DNA of 25,658 nucleotides from a virus. Shown piece by piece: positions 19,670 through 24,751 of the stretch. The stretch is taken from positions 1 through 25,658 of the IMG/VR virus record IMGVR_UViG_3300043429_000817; one strand, 5' to 3'. The notes beneath the pieces are model-generated. The model had not been told where the DNA came from. It ran no database searches and saw only the letters and a list, made by a program, of their open reading frames with translations. The translations under genes were made by a program, and so were the position numbers. Position 1 is the stretch's first letter. Each line of letters opens with the position of its first letter.

Positions 19670-20112
19670 TGTCATACGGCAAAACTTATAAGGGTTTTTT
19701 CAAACCCCGCAACCCGCAAAAATACAAAGGAAACGCAGAGAACATCGTCTACCGTTCATCATGGGAAAGAAGAGTGATGAGTTACTTCGATTCTCACGAC
19801 AGCGTTTTGTGGTGGGCATCTGAGGAGATGTTCGTGAGATACAAGAGTCCGTTGGACAATAAAATCCATCGGTATTTTCCTGATTTCATAGTCAGGATGA
19901 GAGACAAGAACGGTGTAGAAAAGACCTACATGATTGAGGTCAAACCACACAGTCAGACACAGTTACCAAAGGGTAACAGAAATACAAAGAGATTGATTCG
20001 TGAGACTGCCACTTATGCTGTTAATCAAGAGAAGTGGAAAGCAGCTGAACTGTTCTGTTTGGAACACGGATGGGAGTTCAAACTGGTAACGGAAAAGGAA
20101 CTGGGGCTTTAA
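19669..20112 (+). CDS. 4: Head completion nuclease-fold protein gp4 (gp50/gp4)
   Basis: This 147-residue protein matches the T4 gp4 head-completion protein in size and pattern. It has a YKGFFKPRNPQKYKG start, then YRSSWERR, an SEE near residue 51, PDFIV at 71-75, IEVKP at 89-93 and a terminal TEKEL. The residues E33, D72, E90 and K92 form the (E)-PD-ExK arrangement of TnsA-like nucleases, giving a plausible active site. In T4, gp4 acts after packaging to finish the head so that the neck and tail can join. No ribosome binding site at normal spacing is visible: GAGGA lies 18 bases before the ATG. The start codon overlaps the divergent late promoter, so its own promoter is unclear. Confidence 0.9.
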   Translation: MSYGKTYKGFFKPRNPQKYKGNAENIVYRSSWERRVMSYFDSHDSVLWWASEEMFVRYKSPLDNKIHRYFPDFIVRMRDKNGVEKTYMIEVKPHSQTQLPKGNRNTKRLIRETATYAVNQEKWKAAELFCLEHGWEFKLVTEKELGL

Positions 20113-20216: not shown

Positions 20217-20795
20217 ATGGCATATCTAATGGAACGCATCAAACAGCAGTTGGCGAAAGAAGGTTTCGAACCTCGCACCGTCAAGGCGCGTACGTGGTTG
20301 AGAAACAAGGTCAAAGACCTGAGAGTTACACCAACCACCATTATCAAAGACCGCGAAAGACTGAGAGACAGAACTTTCATCGGTAAGATGTATTTCTATT
20401 ACTACGACCCAAAGACCAAAGAGAAGTTGCCGTATTACGACAGATTCCCGTTGGTGATTCCTATCGAAAGATACGCAGATGGGTTCTTGGGTTTGAACTT
20501 GCACTATATTCACCCGAAGCAACGCATTCTGTTGCTGGATGCATTGAGTGAGTACGCGACAAATAAACGATTTGATGATAAGACCCGACTGAGATTGACA
20601 TACAGTTTGTTGAAAGGTGCGTCTAATGCGTATCAGGCAACACCCTGTATCAAGAGATACCTGTTCAATCATGTGCAGTCTCGTTTCGTGGAAATTACCG
20701 CAGACGAATGGGATATCGCGGCACTATTGCCAGTCGAACAGTTTGTCGGCGCAACAAAGAGCAAAGTTTGGTACGATTCCAGAGGCAAATTCTAA
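20217..20795 (+). CDS. Conserved T4-like virion protein, possibly gp2 DNA end protector
   Basis: This is a 192-residue protein, or 188 if translation begins at the second ATG at 20229. It contains a striking KMYFYYYDPKTKEKLPYYDR segment at about 58-77, then FPLVIPIERYADGFLGLNLH and YIHPKQRILLLDAL. I recall this pattern as a conserved protein of exo-T-even phages, located near the head-completion and tube genes. T4 encodes gp3, gp2 and gp4 in neighbouring positions. Because gp4 is next door, gp2 (protects packaged DNA ends) is a reasonable guess, but I cannot match it to T4 gp2 from memory. The N-terminus is basic (VKARTWLRNKVKDLR). The stop overlaps the next gene as TAATG. Confidence 0.85.
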   Translation: MAYLMERIKQQLAKEGFEPRTVKARTWLRNKVKDLRVTPTTIIKDRERLRDRTFIGKMYFYYYDPKTKEKLPYYDRFPLVIPIERYADGFLGLNLHYIHPKQRILLLDALSEYATNKRFDDKTRLRLTYSLLKGASNAYQATPCIKRYLFNHVQSRFVEITADEWDIAALLPVEQFVGATKSKVWYDSRGKF

Positions 20796-21463
20796 TGGCA
20801 GATTTTAGACCATCCGCACTACTTTCACACATCAAAGGTCGTGGCGGTCCCGCAAGAACGAACCGATTCGAAGCAATCGTTCCGATTCCAGAATCGATTC
20901 TGCGTTTCCGTAAAATATCGGAAACCGAGTCGAATTCCGCATCTGTACCAAATGCTCTAGGTGCCGGTGCAACAGACCTCTCACGCGCTCTGGCATTGCA
21001 GTGCGAAGCAACAGAATTGCCGGGCCGTACCCTGATGACACAAGAGGCGAAAATCTACGGACCTGTTTACAAAATTCCGTATCAGACTCAATACAATGAA
21101 ATCAGTCTGACTTTCTTGTGTACCAATGAATTCTATGAACGCCGTTTGTTCGAAACATGGATGAGTTGCATCATGGCACCAGACACGAACAATATGCGAT
21201 TCCAAAACACTTATGCGACAACCTTGCAGGTGATTCAGTATGATGACTCTGTAAACAGCATCTATCGCGTAAGTATGTACAACGCATTCCCAACAGGAAT
21301 TTCACCGGCACCTGTCGCATGGGCAGATGACGGTTTTCACCGACTGACAGTGCAATTTGCGTACACTAAATACGGCATCGACAATTCGGGACCTAAACCA
21401 TCGCAACAAAATGAACAGACGGCTCGCCGAGAACAACTCGGAACGGGACCAGAAGGACCATGA
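20795..21463 (+). CDS. 54: Tail-tube-fold protein, gp54-like tube initiator
   Basis: The start is the ATG at 20795, overlapping the upstream stop as TAATG. This gives 222 residues; a longer in-frame reading from 20708 lies inside the previous gene and is rejected. The core LQCEATELPGRTL (about residues 68-80) resembles FQCKATALPAGIV of the T4 tail-tube protein gp19. The later GFHRLTVQFAYTKY is the typical final strand of tube-fold proteins, including gp54. The N-terminal RTNRFEAIVPIP resembles the opening strand of these domains. In T4, gp54 sits on gp48 and starts tube polymerisation. A gp19-type tube paralogue is possible, but the location beside gp26 and away from a sheath gene favours a baseplate-tube role. 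The C-terminus is a charged, probably flexible tail. Confidence 0.68.
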   Translation: MADFRPSALLSHIKGRGGPARTNRFEAIVPIPESILRFRKISETESNSASVPNALGAGATDLSRALALQCEATELPGRTLMTQEAKIYGPVYKIPYQTQYNEISLTFLCTNEFYERRLFETWMSCIMAPDTNNMRFQNTYATTLQVIQYDDSVNSIYRVSMYNAFPTGISPAPVAWADDGFHRLTVQFAYTKYGIDNSGPKPSQQNEQTARREQLGTGPEGP

Positions 21464-21480: not shown

Positions 21481-22215
21481 ATGTTACCAGTTATTGATGT
21501 ACCAGTTTTCACCGTGAATTTGTTATCTTTGGATAGACCGGTTCGCTTTCGTTGTTTTACCGTAAAAGAAGAAAAGTTGTTCCTGATTGCCGCAGAGTCG
21601 GGTGACGCCGCGAGTATGATGAGTACCACCAAGCAAGTTCTGAAAAACTGCGTCTTGGATGAAATTGATATCGACAGTATTCCTGCATTCGATATCGAAA
21701 CTCTATTCATGCACATCCGCGCACGCTCGGTCGGCGAAGTGGTACAACTGAAATACAAATGCAACAACATCGTTGGTGAGACTGCTGAAGGTGAACCTAA
21801 GCGTTGCAACCACAATGTCAAGATGGAAGTCAATCTGCTGGAAATTCAACCGTCATTCGGTGAAGGACACGAAAAGAAGATTCAACTGAACGAAAATGTG
21901 GGTATGGTATTGAAGTACCCAAATCTGAAAACCATGGAAAAGGCACAACTGTCAACCGATGCCTCAGCACTGATTGGATTGGCAATCGACTGTGTTGACT
22001 ACATCTATGACAAGGATGAAGTGTTTTATTCAAAAGACATTCCTCTCGCAGAACTGGTCGACTGGTTTGAAAGACTGCAAACCAAGGATTTGGAAAAAGT
22101 CAGAAACTTCTTCGATACTCTACCGAGAATCAAGAAAGACATCCACTTCCACTGCACCAAATGTGGTTATGAAGAAGAAATTACTGTCGAGGGGCTAGAA
22201 AATTTTTTCGACTAA
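21481..22215 (+). CDS. 26: gp26-family baseplate assembly protein (tail-assembly chaperone N part)
   Basis: This 244-residue protein has a strong AAGGAG ribosome binding site six bases before the ATG. It resembles the T4 gp26 / T4-baseplate family in the opening strand and helix pattern (RFRCFTVKEEKLFLIAAESG), the FDIETLFMHIRARSVGEVV block at about residues 70-88, and the C-terminal half. Two cysteine pairs, C94/C109 and C225-x2-C228 (HCTKCGY), could make a four-cysteine zinc ribbon. T4 gp26 is needed to assemble the baseplate hub. Position just before a small ORF and a tape-measure-like gene mimics tail-chaperone pairs. The last codons contain a slippery run directly ahead of the stop, predicting a longer fusion product of 310 residues with the next ORF. 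Confidence 0.88.
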   Translation: MLPVIDVPVFTVNLLSLDRPVRFRCFTVKEEKLFLIAAESGDAASMMSTTKQVLKNCVLDEIDIDSIPAFDIETLFMHIRARSVGEVVQLKYKCNNIVGETAEGEPKRCNHNVKMEVNLLEIQPSFGEGHEKKIQLNENVGMVLKYPNLKTMEKAQLSTDASALIGLAIDCVDYIYDKDEVFYSKDIPLAELVDWFERLQTKDLEKVRNFFDTLPRIKKDIHFHCTKCGYEEEITVEGLENFFD

Positions 22216-22295
22216 TGTTTGGTTATGATACTCTGTCAAACTTTTACCAAACAAATTTTGCATTAATGCATCACCACAAATATAGTTTGACAGAG
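22189..22295 (+). promoter_or_regulatory. Predicted programmed -1 ribosomal frameshift signal (gp26 to gp51-like ORF)
   Basis: Elements in order: SD-like GAGGGG at 22189-22194; heptamer T_TTT_TTC at 22203-22209 in the gp26 frame, overlapping a second one, A_AAT_TTT at 22200-22206; gp26 stop at 22213-22215; stem 1 of 8 bp (22216-22223 with 22246-22253, TGTTTGGT/ACCAAACA); stem 2 of 12 bp (22231-22242 with 22284-22295, CTCTGTCAAACT/AGTTTGACAGAG). The 5' arm of stem 2 lies in the loop of stem 1, so an H-type pseudoknot is possible, with loops of about 7, 3 and 30 bases. The spacer is 6 bases. Slipping back one base reads R-L-M and continues into the next ORF, giving a 310-residue fusion. The element set is that of dnaX-type bacterial frameshifting. 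Function is predicted, not shown. Confidence 0.75.
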
Positions 22296-22412
22296 ATAGA
22301 AAATTTGATTCCGTGGGAAAAATTTATATACCTTGAATTGTTGATGAATGTTTTGAGAGAAGAAGAAGAACAAACGAGACAACAACAAGCTGCAATGAAA
22401 TCACAACGATAG
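22215..22412 (+). CDS. Small gp51-like ORF, probable frameshift extension of gp26
   Basis: This 65-residue ORF overlaps the gp26 stop (TAATG). It reads NFALMHHHKYSLTEIENLIP, then WEKFIYLELLMNVLREEEEQ, a compact helical domain with a glutamate/glutamine-rich end. It resembles the small second ORF of phage tail-chaperone pairs and occupies the gp51 position of T4-like phages, though T4 gp51 is much longer (249). No ribosome binding site lies at normal spacing from its ATG; the only GA-rich sequence is 20 bases upstream, before the slippery run. It may therefore be made mainly as the C-terminal part of a gp26 fusion, with some independent product by re-initiation at the overlapping ATG. It is visibly more AT-rich than its neighbours. 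TAG stop; the next gene starts eight bases later. Confidence 0.82.
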   Translation: MFGYDTLSNFYQTNFALMHHHKYSLTEIENLIPWEKFIYLELLMNVLREEEEQTRQQQAAMKSQR

Positions 22413-22420
22413 GCAATTAA

Positions 22421-24751
22421 ATGGCGTCAATCTCCCAATTGTTAGGTGGCAAGAAAAACCAGGATATATCCGATGTGCTGGCAGAAGCTATTTTCGGGAA
22501 AAAATCAAAACCGAAAAAGACAACAACACCAACTGCCCAAAAAGGGTCCGCAACTGTTACTGATGAGTCGCAGATTCCTATCTTACGTTCGATTGCCGCG
22601 AATGCGAGAATTTCTGCAAAGAACTCTATGGCACTGCCGGGAATTCTTCAGCAGACAAACATCATGCAGAAGAATATCGCAAAGTTGGTTCGTCTGCAAG
22701 GCGCGAATCCTACTAACAAAGCTGATGCCTTCTTCTCATCTGCCAAGTTCAGAGAGAATGCCTACGAATCCGCATTCCGTAAAGAATCCGGCGCTGGCGG
22801 TTCGACTTCACCGAAGAAAGAAGATGGTGGCGGAGAAAAGAAAGGAAAAACACTAACCGGTTTTATTGATTCTCTATTGGGAATATTCACCTCATCATTC
22901 ATCAAGAAAATGGTGGTTGGTGGTGTTCTTGTCGCCGGTCTGACCAAGTACTTCAAAGACCCAGTTTTCAAAAAACAAATTGATGAAATGCTGACTGCAT
23001 TCAGAAGAGCATTCATCAATGACAAAGGTTGGGAACTAATCAAGAAAGGTGCCTCAGATGTAGGAAATGTTCTTATTCTGTTGGGCGTTGCTCTCGTTGG
23101 TTTCAAACTTGCACTGAACTATCTTGCAGGTCGTATGTGGGCTGCCGGTGCGGGCATGGGTCGCGGAATGCCGATGCCAAATACACCGGGCCGCGGCGGA
23201 AAACCAGGCAAGCCGGGAAAACCTGGTGCGCCGGCGCCACGAAGAATGGGAACCGGAATTATGGGCGCGCTGACATCCTTGGGTCTGGGTTTTGGTGCTT
23301 CATATTTGATGAGTGATTCCGGCGGAGATTCGGGCGCGACAACAACTACACCAACAGGCGCAGAACAAGTATCCAATCAATCATCGGGTTCAAATCTTGG
23401 TTTGCTTGGCGGTCTTGCGGCACTACAGACAGTAAACACCGGCATCGGCGGTATCAACATGGTTTCGACCGTGATGAGTCGCAAAAAAATTGATGGTAAA
23501 GACCTTGTTTCGAAATCAACAATCAATAAGTGGATTAACAAAATTGGAAAAATCAGGTCCAAAAACTGGGGTGCGCGTGTACTAGGAAAACTCAGAAAAC
23601 GCCTGATGATGAGTAAACTCGGCAGAAAAATCCTACAGAAAGCAATTATCTTTATTGCAGGACTTGTTGCACCGGGACCGGGGTGGGTTGCATCGATTGC
23701 CGCCGCGGCATTCTTTTTGTGGGATGTTTATTGGTTGTACACAATTCTTGAAGAAATCATTCAAGATATTGAGGCAGAAGATGCCGAAGCAGAAGGTGCA
23801 ACAAGCGCATCACGACAAGCGAATTATGACGAAGAAGGACAAAGCAACACATCGTCTCGATTCAAAACCGCGCTGGCCGCGGCAACTGCGATACTGCCGG
23901 GACCTATGGGCATGGCGACTGCTACATCATATTGGGCAGGCCTCGCCGCCGGCGGAAACCTTGCTGATAAATTGGGCATGACTGCTGGCCAAGGTGCATA
24001 CAAAGACATTAACTTTGCGCAAGTCAAAGATAAAATCATTGCGGGTGAAGGCACTGCAAAAGGTGGAAGAAATCCTTATGAGACTGTTTACGGTTTCGGA
24101 CAATTTGGTTCACCATCCAAGAAATTGACCGAAATGACGATTGCTGAAGTGCAAGCATTCCAATCCCAACTGATTAACGCAACACGCGGTAAAGTCAAAG
24201 GTGTAGATTCAAACGAAGGCACCGGTGCTGTTGGTGCATTTCAGTTCACCAAGGAAACACTCGCAACTGCCGCGCAGGCGATTTACGGACAGAATTGGCA
24301 AAAGGTGAAATTCACACCAGAAGCACAAACTGCCATGGCAGAATATATTTTCGATATCTCTAAAGGTAGTAATCGAAGATTGAGTAAAAGATGGGCATTC
24401 TTTAGTGACCTTGATCCGGATTACTCAAGTCTCCGCGCACAAGGTGCCAGTGGCGGCAGCGTACCATATTTGAGTCAAATTCAAGTACCACCGCCGGCAC
24501 CACCAGTACCAGCGCCGGCAAAAAATAAGACTACACCATCTGTTGATGGAAACATCTTCAAAGCACCTGTCGCGGCAAATCTAGGAAAATCTGGTGCGCC
24601 AGCAACAAACTATGTCGTGATTGACCAAAGTCAGACAACAGTTGGTGCGCAATCACAATCCGCGGCGTCACCAGCGGCACAAACAATGCCAAGTGTGTAC
24701 AATCCAGAGCAATTCAATTTGTCTAACATAATGAGAGCATCTGCAATGTAA
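22421..24751 (+). CDS. Tape-measure-like hub/tail lysin with lysozyme-like domain
   Basis: 776 residues. The N-terminal 120 residues include a helical segment (SIAANARISAKNSMALPGIL, MQKNIAKLVRLQG). Hydrophobic, potentially membrane-inserting segments lie at about 148-178, 213-238, 278-297 and 408-447. A collagen-like glycine/proline stretch (GRGGKPGKPGKPGAPAPRR) is at 257-275. Residues 530-665 look like a lysozyme or transglycosylase: KIIAGEGT with E543 as candidate catalytic acid, YETVYGFG, and GTGAVGAFQFTKETL at 601-615, resembling the SSAVGRYQF motif of such domains. A proline-rich linker and a low-complexity tail follow. Position right after the gp26/gp51-like pair suggests the tape measure (T4 gp29 role), carrying the muralytic activity that gp5 lacks here. 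A separate virion lysin is the alternative. Ends TAATAA before a terminator. Confidence 0.8.
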   Translation: MASISQLLGGKKNQDISDVLAEAIFGKKSKPKKTTTPTAQKGSATVTDESQIPILRSIAANARISAKNSMALPGILQQTNIMQKNIAKLVRLQGANPTNKADAFFSSAKFRENAYESAFRKESGAGGSTSPKKEDGGGEKKGKTLTGFIDSLLGIFTSSFIKKMVVGGVLVAGLTKYFKDPVFKKQIDEMLTAFRRAFINDKGWELIKKGASDVGNVLILLGVALVGFKLALNYLAGRMWAAGAGMGRGMPMPNTPGRGGKPGKPGKPGAPAPRRMGTGIMGALTSLGLGFGASYLMSDSGGDSGATTTTPTGAEQVSNQSSGSNLGLLGGLAALQTVNTGIGGINMVSTVMSRKKIDGKDLVSKSTINKWINKIGKIRSKNWGARVLGKLRKRLMMSKLGRKILQKAIIFIAGLVAPGPGWVASIAAAAFFLWDVYWLYTILEEIIQDIEAEDAEAEGATSASRQANYDEEGQSNTSSRFKTALAAATAILPGPMGMATATSYWAGLAAGGNLADKLGMTAGQGAYKDINFAQVKDKIIAGEGTAKGGRNPYETVYGFGQFGSPSKKLTEMTIAEVQAFQSQLINATRGKVKGVDSNEGTGAVGAFQFTKETLATAAQAIYGQNWQKVKFTPEAQTAMAEYIFDISKGSNRRLSKRWAFFSDLDPDYSSLRAQGASGGSVPYLSQIQVPPPAPPVPAPAKNKTTPSVDGNIFKAPVAANLGKSGAPATNYVVIDQSQTTVGAQSQSAASPAAQTMPSVYNPEQFNLSNIMRASAM

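Follow-up and report, generated by a model that had tools for sequence, protein, structure and literature searches.

The DNA analysed here (hereafter the window) is a viral stretch of 25,658 nucleotides, in which tail genes are found in the order tail tube, gp26, gp51 and a large ORF. In phage lambda the order is tube, chaperone and tape measure, and the order in the window matches it. The genes and sequence elements of the locus are as follows.

20708..21463, plus strand: upstream tail tube gene, gp19-like (phrog_45 tail tube, 4e-39)
21481..22215, plus strand: gp26-like gene of 244 aa, candidate short tail-assembly chaperone (TAC-N), with matches to PF12322 and phrog_150
22189..22194, plus strand: SD-like element GAGGGG, ending 8 nt 5' of the heptamer, putative stimulator as judged by its sequence
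22203..22209, plus strand: slippery heptamer T_TTT_TTC in the gp26 frame, before the zero-frame stop
22209..22412, plus strand: -1 frame extension, gp51-like, TAC-C domain, 67 aa and a stop (phrog_634, phrog_150)
22213..22215, plus strand: zero-frame stop TAA of gp26, overlapping the ATG at 22215-22217 as TAATG
22216-22223 (TGTTTGGT) and 22246-22253 (ACCAAACA), plus strand: stem 1 of the predicted pseudoknot, 8 bp, perfect pairing
22231-22242 (CTCTGTCAAACT) and 22284-22295 (AGTTTGACAGAG), plus strand: stem 2 of the predicted pseudoknot, 12 bp, perfect pairing, lineage-specific
22421..24751, plus strand: downstream 776-aa ORF, probable tape measure gene as judged by position

The gp26-like protein matches the Pfam family T4_baseplate (PF12322, 3.7e-55) and phrog_150 (1.7e-62). 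The 3' end of its gene is read as GAG GGG CTA GAA AAT TTT TTC GAC TAA, and a second in-frame heptamer, A_AAT_TTT (22200-22206), overlaps T_TTT_TTC. The elements of the signal were found in the order and at the distances given in the original prediction: GAGGGG, 8 nt, T_TTT_TTC, a 6-nt spacer (22210-22215) and two perfect interlocking stems of 8 and 12 bp. The downstream ORF lies exactly in the -1 frame, which stays open from the CGA codon at 22209 until a stop codon is reached at 22410-22412. The coding capacity of the fusion is 243+67 = 310 aa; both the frame relation and the size had been predicted. An ORF called in the manner of public annotations would start at ATG 22215. The gp51-like extension matches phrog_634 (2e-25) and positions 238-277 of phrog_150, and the fusion scores 251.6 bits against phrog_150 (positions 7-276, across the junction) compared to 212.4 for gp26 alone. 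Across 16 genes of the window only seven A/T slippery heptamers lie in frame, and the overlapping pair at the gp26 end accounts for two of these. Six T followed by a pyrimidine occur 9 times in the window, fewer than the 27 occurrences expected. The gp4-like head closure gene also carries an in-frame T_TTT_TTC close to its start (19695-19701), and AAGGG immediately precedes this heptamer.

The flanking genes were characterized as well. The listed tail tube ORF is overlapped by 88 bases by the ORF of a gp2-like DNA end protector (20217-20795). The true start of the tail tube gene is probably later than the listed one, since phrog_45 is matched only from residue 32 onwards. The C-terminal part of the 776-aa ORF matches phrog_6126 (virion structural protein). 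An attempt to identify this ORF as the tape measure by homology to T4 gp29 yielded no significant similarity, and hence the role is assigned from its position. The distance from gp51 to the first long ORF downstream is about 500 bases in one group of relatives (L003), whereas the two are nearly contiguous elsewhere; this group may have an extra gene in the gap.

The original prediction proposed a comparison of the gp26-gp51 junction in related phages as a check. A search of viral contigs with gp26 gave 23 loci. TTTTTTC/T occupies the homologous site in every one of them (23/23), and on contigs that reach far enough the gp51 domain follows in the -1 frame. Among loci anchored on gp51 and counted before any heptamer filter was applied, the slippery heptamer is present in the gp26 frame in 79 of 80. 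The sole exception (L065) was rejected as a counter-example given that the 3' end of its gp26 is deleted. In this record (positions 1-700) gp26 jumps mid-gene into the gp51 region, apparently due to an internal deletion or a misassembly. Phages with the heptamer include S-SSM6b, P-SSM7, KVP40, phiN3, Moby, IG49, Aeh1, MED4-213 and Vibrio D479.

Collapsing the sequences at 85% nucleotide identity resulted in 77 lineages, and the slip site is present in all 77 analysed lineages (identity below 85%); as this set was built from sequences with TTTTTT at the site, the counts obtained before filtering are the fairer measure and are given above for that reason. Every one of the 77 lineages has T in the third position of the codon preceding the Phe-Phe pair and uses TTT for the first Phe; with amino acids and codon usage taken into account, the log10 P values are -16.2 and -13.5, respectively. 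These values measure strength and are not exact probabilities, because the lineages share ancestry. A core of the AAGG, GAGG or GGAGG type occurs in the same interval in most of the 77 lineages. The SD-like element sits on conserved Glu-Gly codons, and its conservation could be partly protein-driven.

In T4 and its close relatives gp26 and gp51 are two divergent genes. Pfam T4_baseplate (PF12322) matches T4-type gp26 (positions 1-206) and gp51 (positions 1-201) about equally well. We built a profile from 75 computed -1 fusions and compared it with both T4 proteins. It aligns with T4 gp51 as one continuous domain (15-245) that passes through the junction, whereas the match to T4 gp26 stops at the junction. 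The Phe-Phe pair is kept at the end of T4 gp26 but is coded by TTC TTT, which is not slippery, and gene 25 comes next. Since the fusion profile runs uninterrupted through the junction in T4 gp51, this protein appears, by sequence comparison, to be a gp26 paralogue with the same C-terminal extension, that is, the long form made from a duplicated gene and the full-length counterpart of the fusion. Thus, the T-even phages have two forms from two genes (gp26, and gp51 as a gp26-like protein plus extension), whereas in the window both forms would come from one locus. The gene families and the short and long chaperone forms are common to the two systems. Together these comparisons give a consistent picture in which T4 gp26/gp51 is this chaperone pair in duplicated form, made without frameshifting, and they bear out the earlier proposal that gp26 and gp51 are a chaperone pair, here with a short and a long form; the chaperone reading of the two genes is right, as far as homology can tell.

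Two other ways of making a gp51 product were weighed against frameshifting. According to one of them, translation terminates at TAA 22213-22215 and restarts at ATG 22215, giving a separate gp51 of 65 aa, with the heptamer being incidental. The TAATG overlap in the window would by itself fit such coupled reinitiation too, 15 of the 77 lineages have an ATG starting two bases into the stop, and a separate gp51 is annotated in many records. However, a start codon near the stop for the second ORF, as present in the window, is not conserved across the lineages: in 53/77 the -1 frame contains no ATG, GTG or TTG over the eight codons that follow the slip, and the sequence encoded there is still homologous and kept in frame. 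In public annotations gp51 is often truncated or omitted; it is annotated as starting inside the conserved domain in P-SSM7 and Vibrio D479 and is not annotated at all in S-SSM6b and Aeh1. No joined CDS for gp26 was found among the public records examined. Reinitiation also leaves unexplained both the fixation of T_TTT_TTN at synonymous sites and the full-length gp51 of T4. We consider it very unlikely as the source of the conserved arrangement, while reinitiation at TAATG as an extra product in the window phage is possible. The other model derives the long form from transcriptional slippage on the T6 run. It draws on the homopolymeric run of T, which reaches eight T in some relatives (e.g., L067). 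On the other hand, the runs on which bacterial RNA polymerase slips are usually longer than six T before a C, and this mechanism predicts neither the strict X_XXY_YYZ phase nor the SD-like core upstream nor an excess of structure on the 3' side; we regard it as extremely improbable.

The fixed heptamer, the lack of a gp51 start codon in most lineages and the alignment of T4 gp51 across the junction make -1 frameshifting the best explanation. The slip site and the -1 relation were found in every analysed slip-bearing lineage, most of which have no separate gp51 start, in line with the original prediction of a -1 shift at T_TTT_TTC assisted by an SD-like element; that the frameshift is real is very likely on these sequence grounds. 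We therefore propose, with a probability of about 0.92, that the gp26-like gene ends in a programmed -1 frameshift site producing a short (TAC-N) and a long (TAC-NC) chaperone, the client of which is most likely the tape measure. Most ribosomes would read TTT TTC GAC TAA and release the 244-aa TAC-N. With the interaction of GAGGGG with the anti-SD sequence holding them from behind and the pseudoknot from the front, a fraction of them would shift from T_TTT_TTC to TTT_TTT_C and translate 67 more codons to yield the 310-aa TAC-NC. By analogy with lambda gpG/gpGT, both chaperones would most likely coat and fold the adjacent tape measure protein and recruit tail tube subunits. The efficiency of the shift, its stimulation in the cell by GAGGGG and the pseudoknot, and the tape measure as the client are parts of the scheme that we infer.

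The two stems interlock to form an H-type pseudoknot predicted from the sequence. The chance of its occurrence was estimated from 4000 redraws of synonymous codons in the region, with the protein encoded in the -1 frame kept. The stacking energy of the pseudoknot, -35.3, compares with a redraw mean of -17.0 (sd 4.2) and was reached in 0 of the 4000 redraws, and a 12-bp stem was present in 2 of them; the earlier statement that a 12-bp complement is unlikely by chance is thus supported. The nested folding energy of the region was reached by 0.5% of the synonymous redraws, and the nested fold of 22210-22300 has z = -3.4 relative to dinucleotide shuffles. Compared with synonymous redraws, the 60 nt following the slip are more stable over 60 lineages (mean z -1.25, P 2e-7), while the next 60 nt, used as a control stretch, have a smaller excess of stability (mean z -0.50, P 0.002). 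The same lineages show no overall enrichment of pseudoknot potential (mean z -0.37, P 0.09), with the window being the most extreme of the 60 (z -6.7).

The pseudoknot of the original prediction was therefore upheld in part. It is far from chance in the window phage, but its 12-bp stem is absent from all other relatives compared, and hence it is lineage-specific and stem 2 is not backed by covariation. In pattern scans of the viral collection stem 2 was found in only one record, the gp26 of which is identical to that of the window; the scans also gave one relative lacking stem 2. A universally conserved hairpin or a covarying pseudoknot after the slip was rejected, given that stem 2 is not shared and the folds differ between lineages, and a search of Rfam for a known RNA family at the site gave no match. 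It is conceivable, though we hold it to be the less probable case, that the frameshift is real and the pseudoknot non-functional, with the slip site and the SD-like element being sufficient and the 12-bp stem being a coincidence or serving a nested form. The restriction of stem 2 to this phage and the lack of overall enrichment agree with this, as does the lowest-energy nested fold, which uses stem 2 and not stem 1. The failure of synonymous recoding to match the pseudoknot, its extreme rank among the lineages and the excess of nested structure at the same place in other lineages argue the other way. In our reading of the sequences, a 3' stimulator is common but specific to each lineage, and in the window phage it would be a pseudoknot. 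We give about even odds to a broader proposal, in which an H-type pseudoknot tunes the frameshift here and has evolved recently atop an ancient and essentially fixed slip site. Outside the T-evens, the 3' stimulator of the T4 superfamily would then turn over fast while the heptamer stays fixed, each lineage resetting the ratio of short to long chaperone.

The original prediction stated that no case had been described for gp26/gp51 of T4-like phages. This claim of novelty was wrong, because a T4-like TAC pair has been published: the TAC genes of T4-like phages were identified by Vladimirov, Gautam & Davidson 2022 (PMID 34826709, as cited in PMC10885494 and PMC12846349). The identity of T4 gp26/gp51 as a TAC pair is taken from that paper as cited, and our comparison fits the published assignment. 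As described in PMC10885494, Vladimirov et al. 2022 found that, in place of frameshifting, some T4-like phages have a short gene together with a longer fusion gene, and the view of T4 gp51 as the long form from a duplicated gene agrees with that account. For -1 signals of the poly-T type in T4-like TAC-N genes, PMC12846349 cites the same work. According to PMC12846349, the TAC locus of Vandenendeviridae and Andersonviridae has a conserved poly-T slip motif, GTTTTT, at the end of TAC-N followed by an open -1 frame, and the ORF downstream of TAC-N is usually misannotated. That locus resembles the window in the conserved poly-T slip motif and the open -1 frame, while the motif itself differs. Hence, a frameshifted TAC pair in a T4-like phage is not new in kind, and the pseudoknot is the part specific to the window phage.

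In genomes of marine T4-like phages gp51, annotated as a "baseplate hub assembly catalyst", is frequently cut short or absent, and the present data point to it being the tail of a frameshift fusion. The evolution of stimulators can be studied on the many slip sites found in nature, the 3' structures of which differ. Because some members of the slip-bearing group are cyanophages that have laboratory hosts, the prediction can be tested directly.

The lambda gpG/gpGT and P2 E/E' pairs, which the original prediction named, resemble the window in layout: the short gene has a -1 frameshift close to its end (predicted in the window), and the pair lies between the tail tube and the tape measure (presumed in the window). 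Their heptamers differ from that of the window. A sequence search for a solved structure of gp26 found none. The AlphaFold model of gp26 has a pLDDT of 92.5, and its comparison with the PDB gave no significant match; for 2ob9_B, the HK97 tail assembly chaperone, the probability was 0.41 with an rmsd of 2.8 over 62 columns and E 3.4, a weak resemblance of the model to 2OB9 that is suggestive at most.

Ackermannviridae (L029, L035, L123, L124) and Vibrio phage D528 (L030) have the gp51-like domain in the -1 frame without the heptamer. The gp26/gp51 junction carries a near-invariant ATTTTCATTTAAT in the four Ackermannviridae genera and CTTTTCAAGTAATG in Vibrio phage D528.
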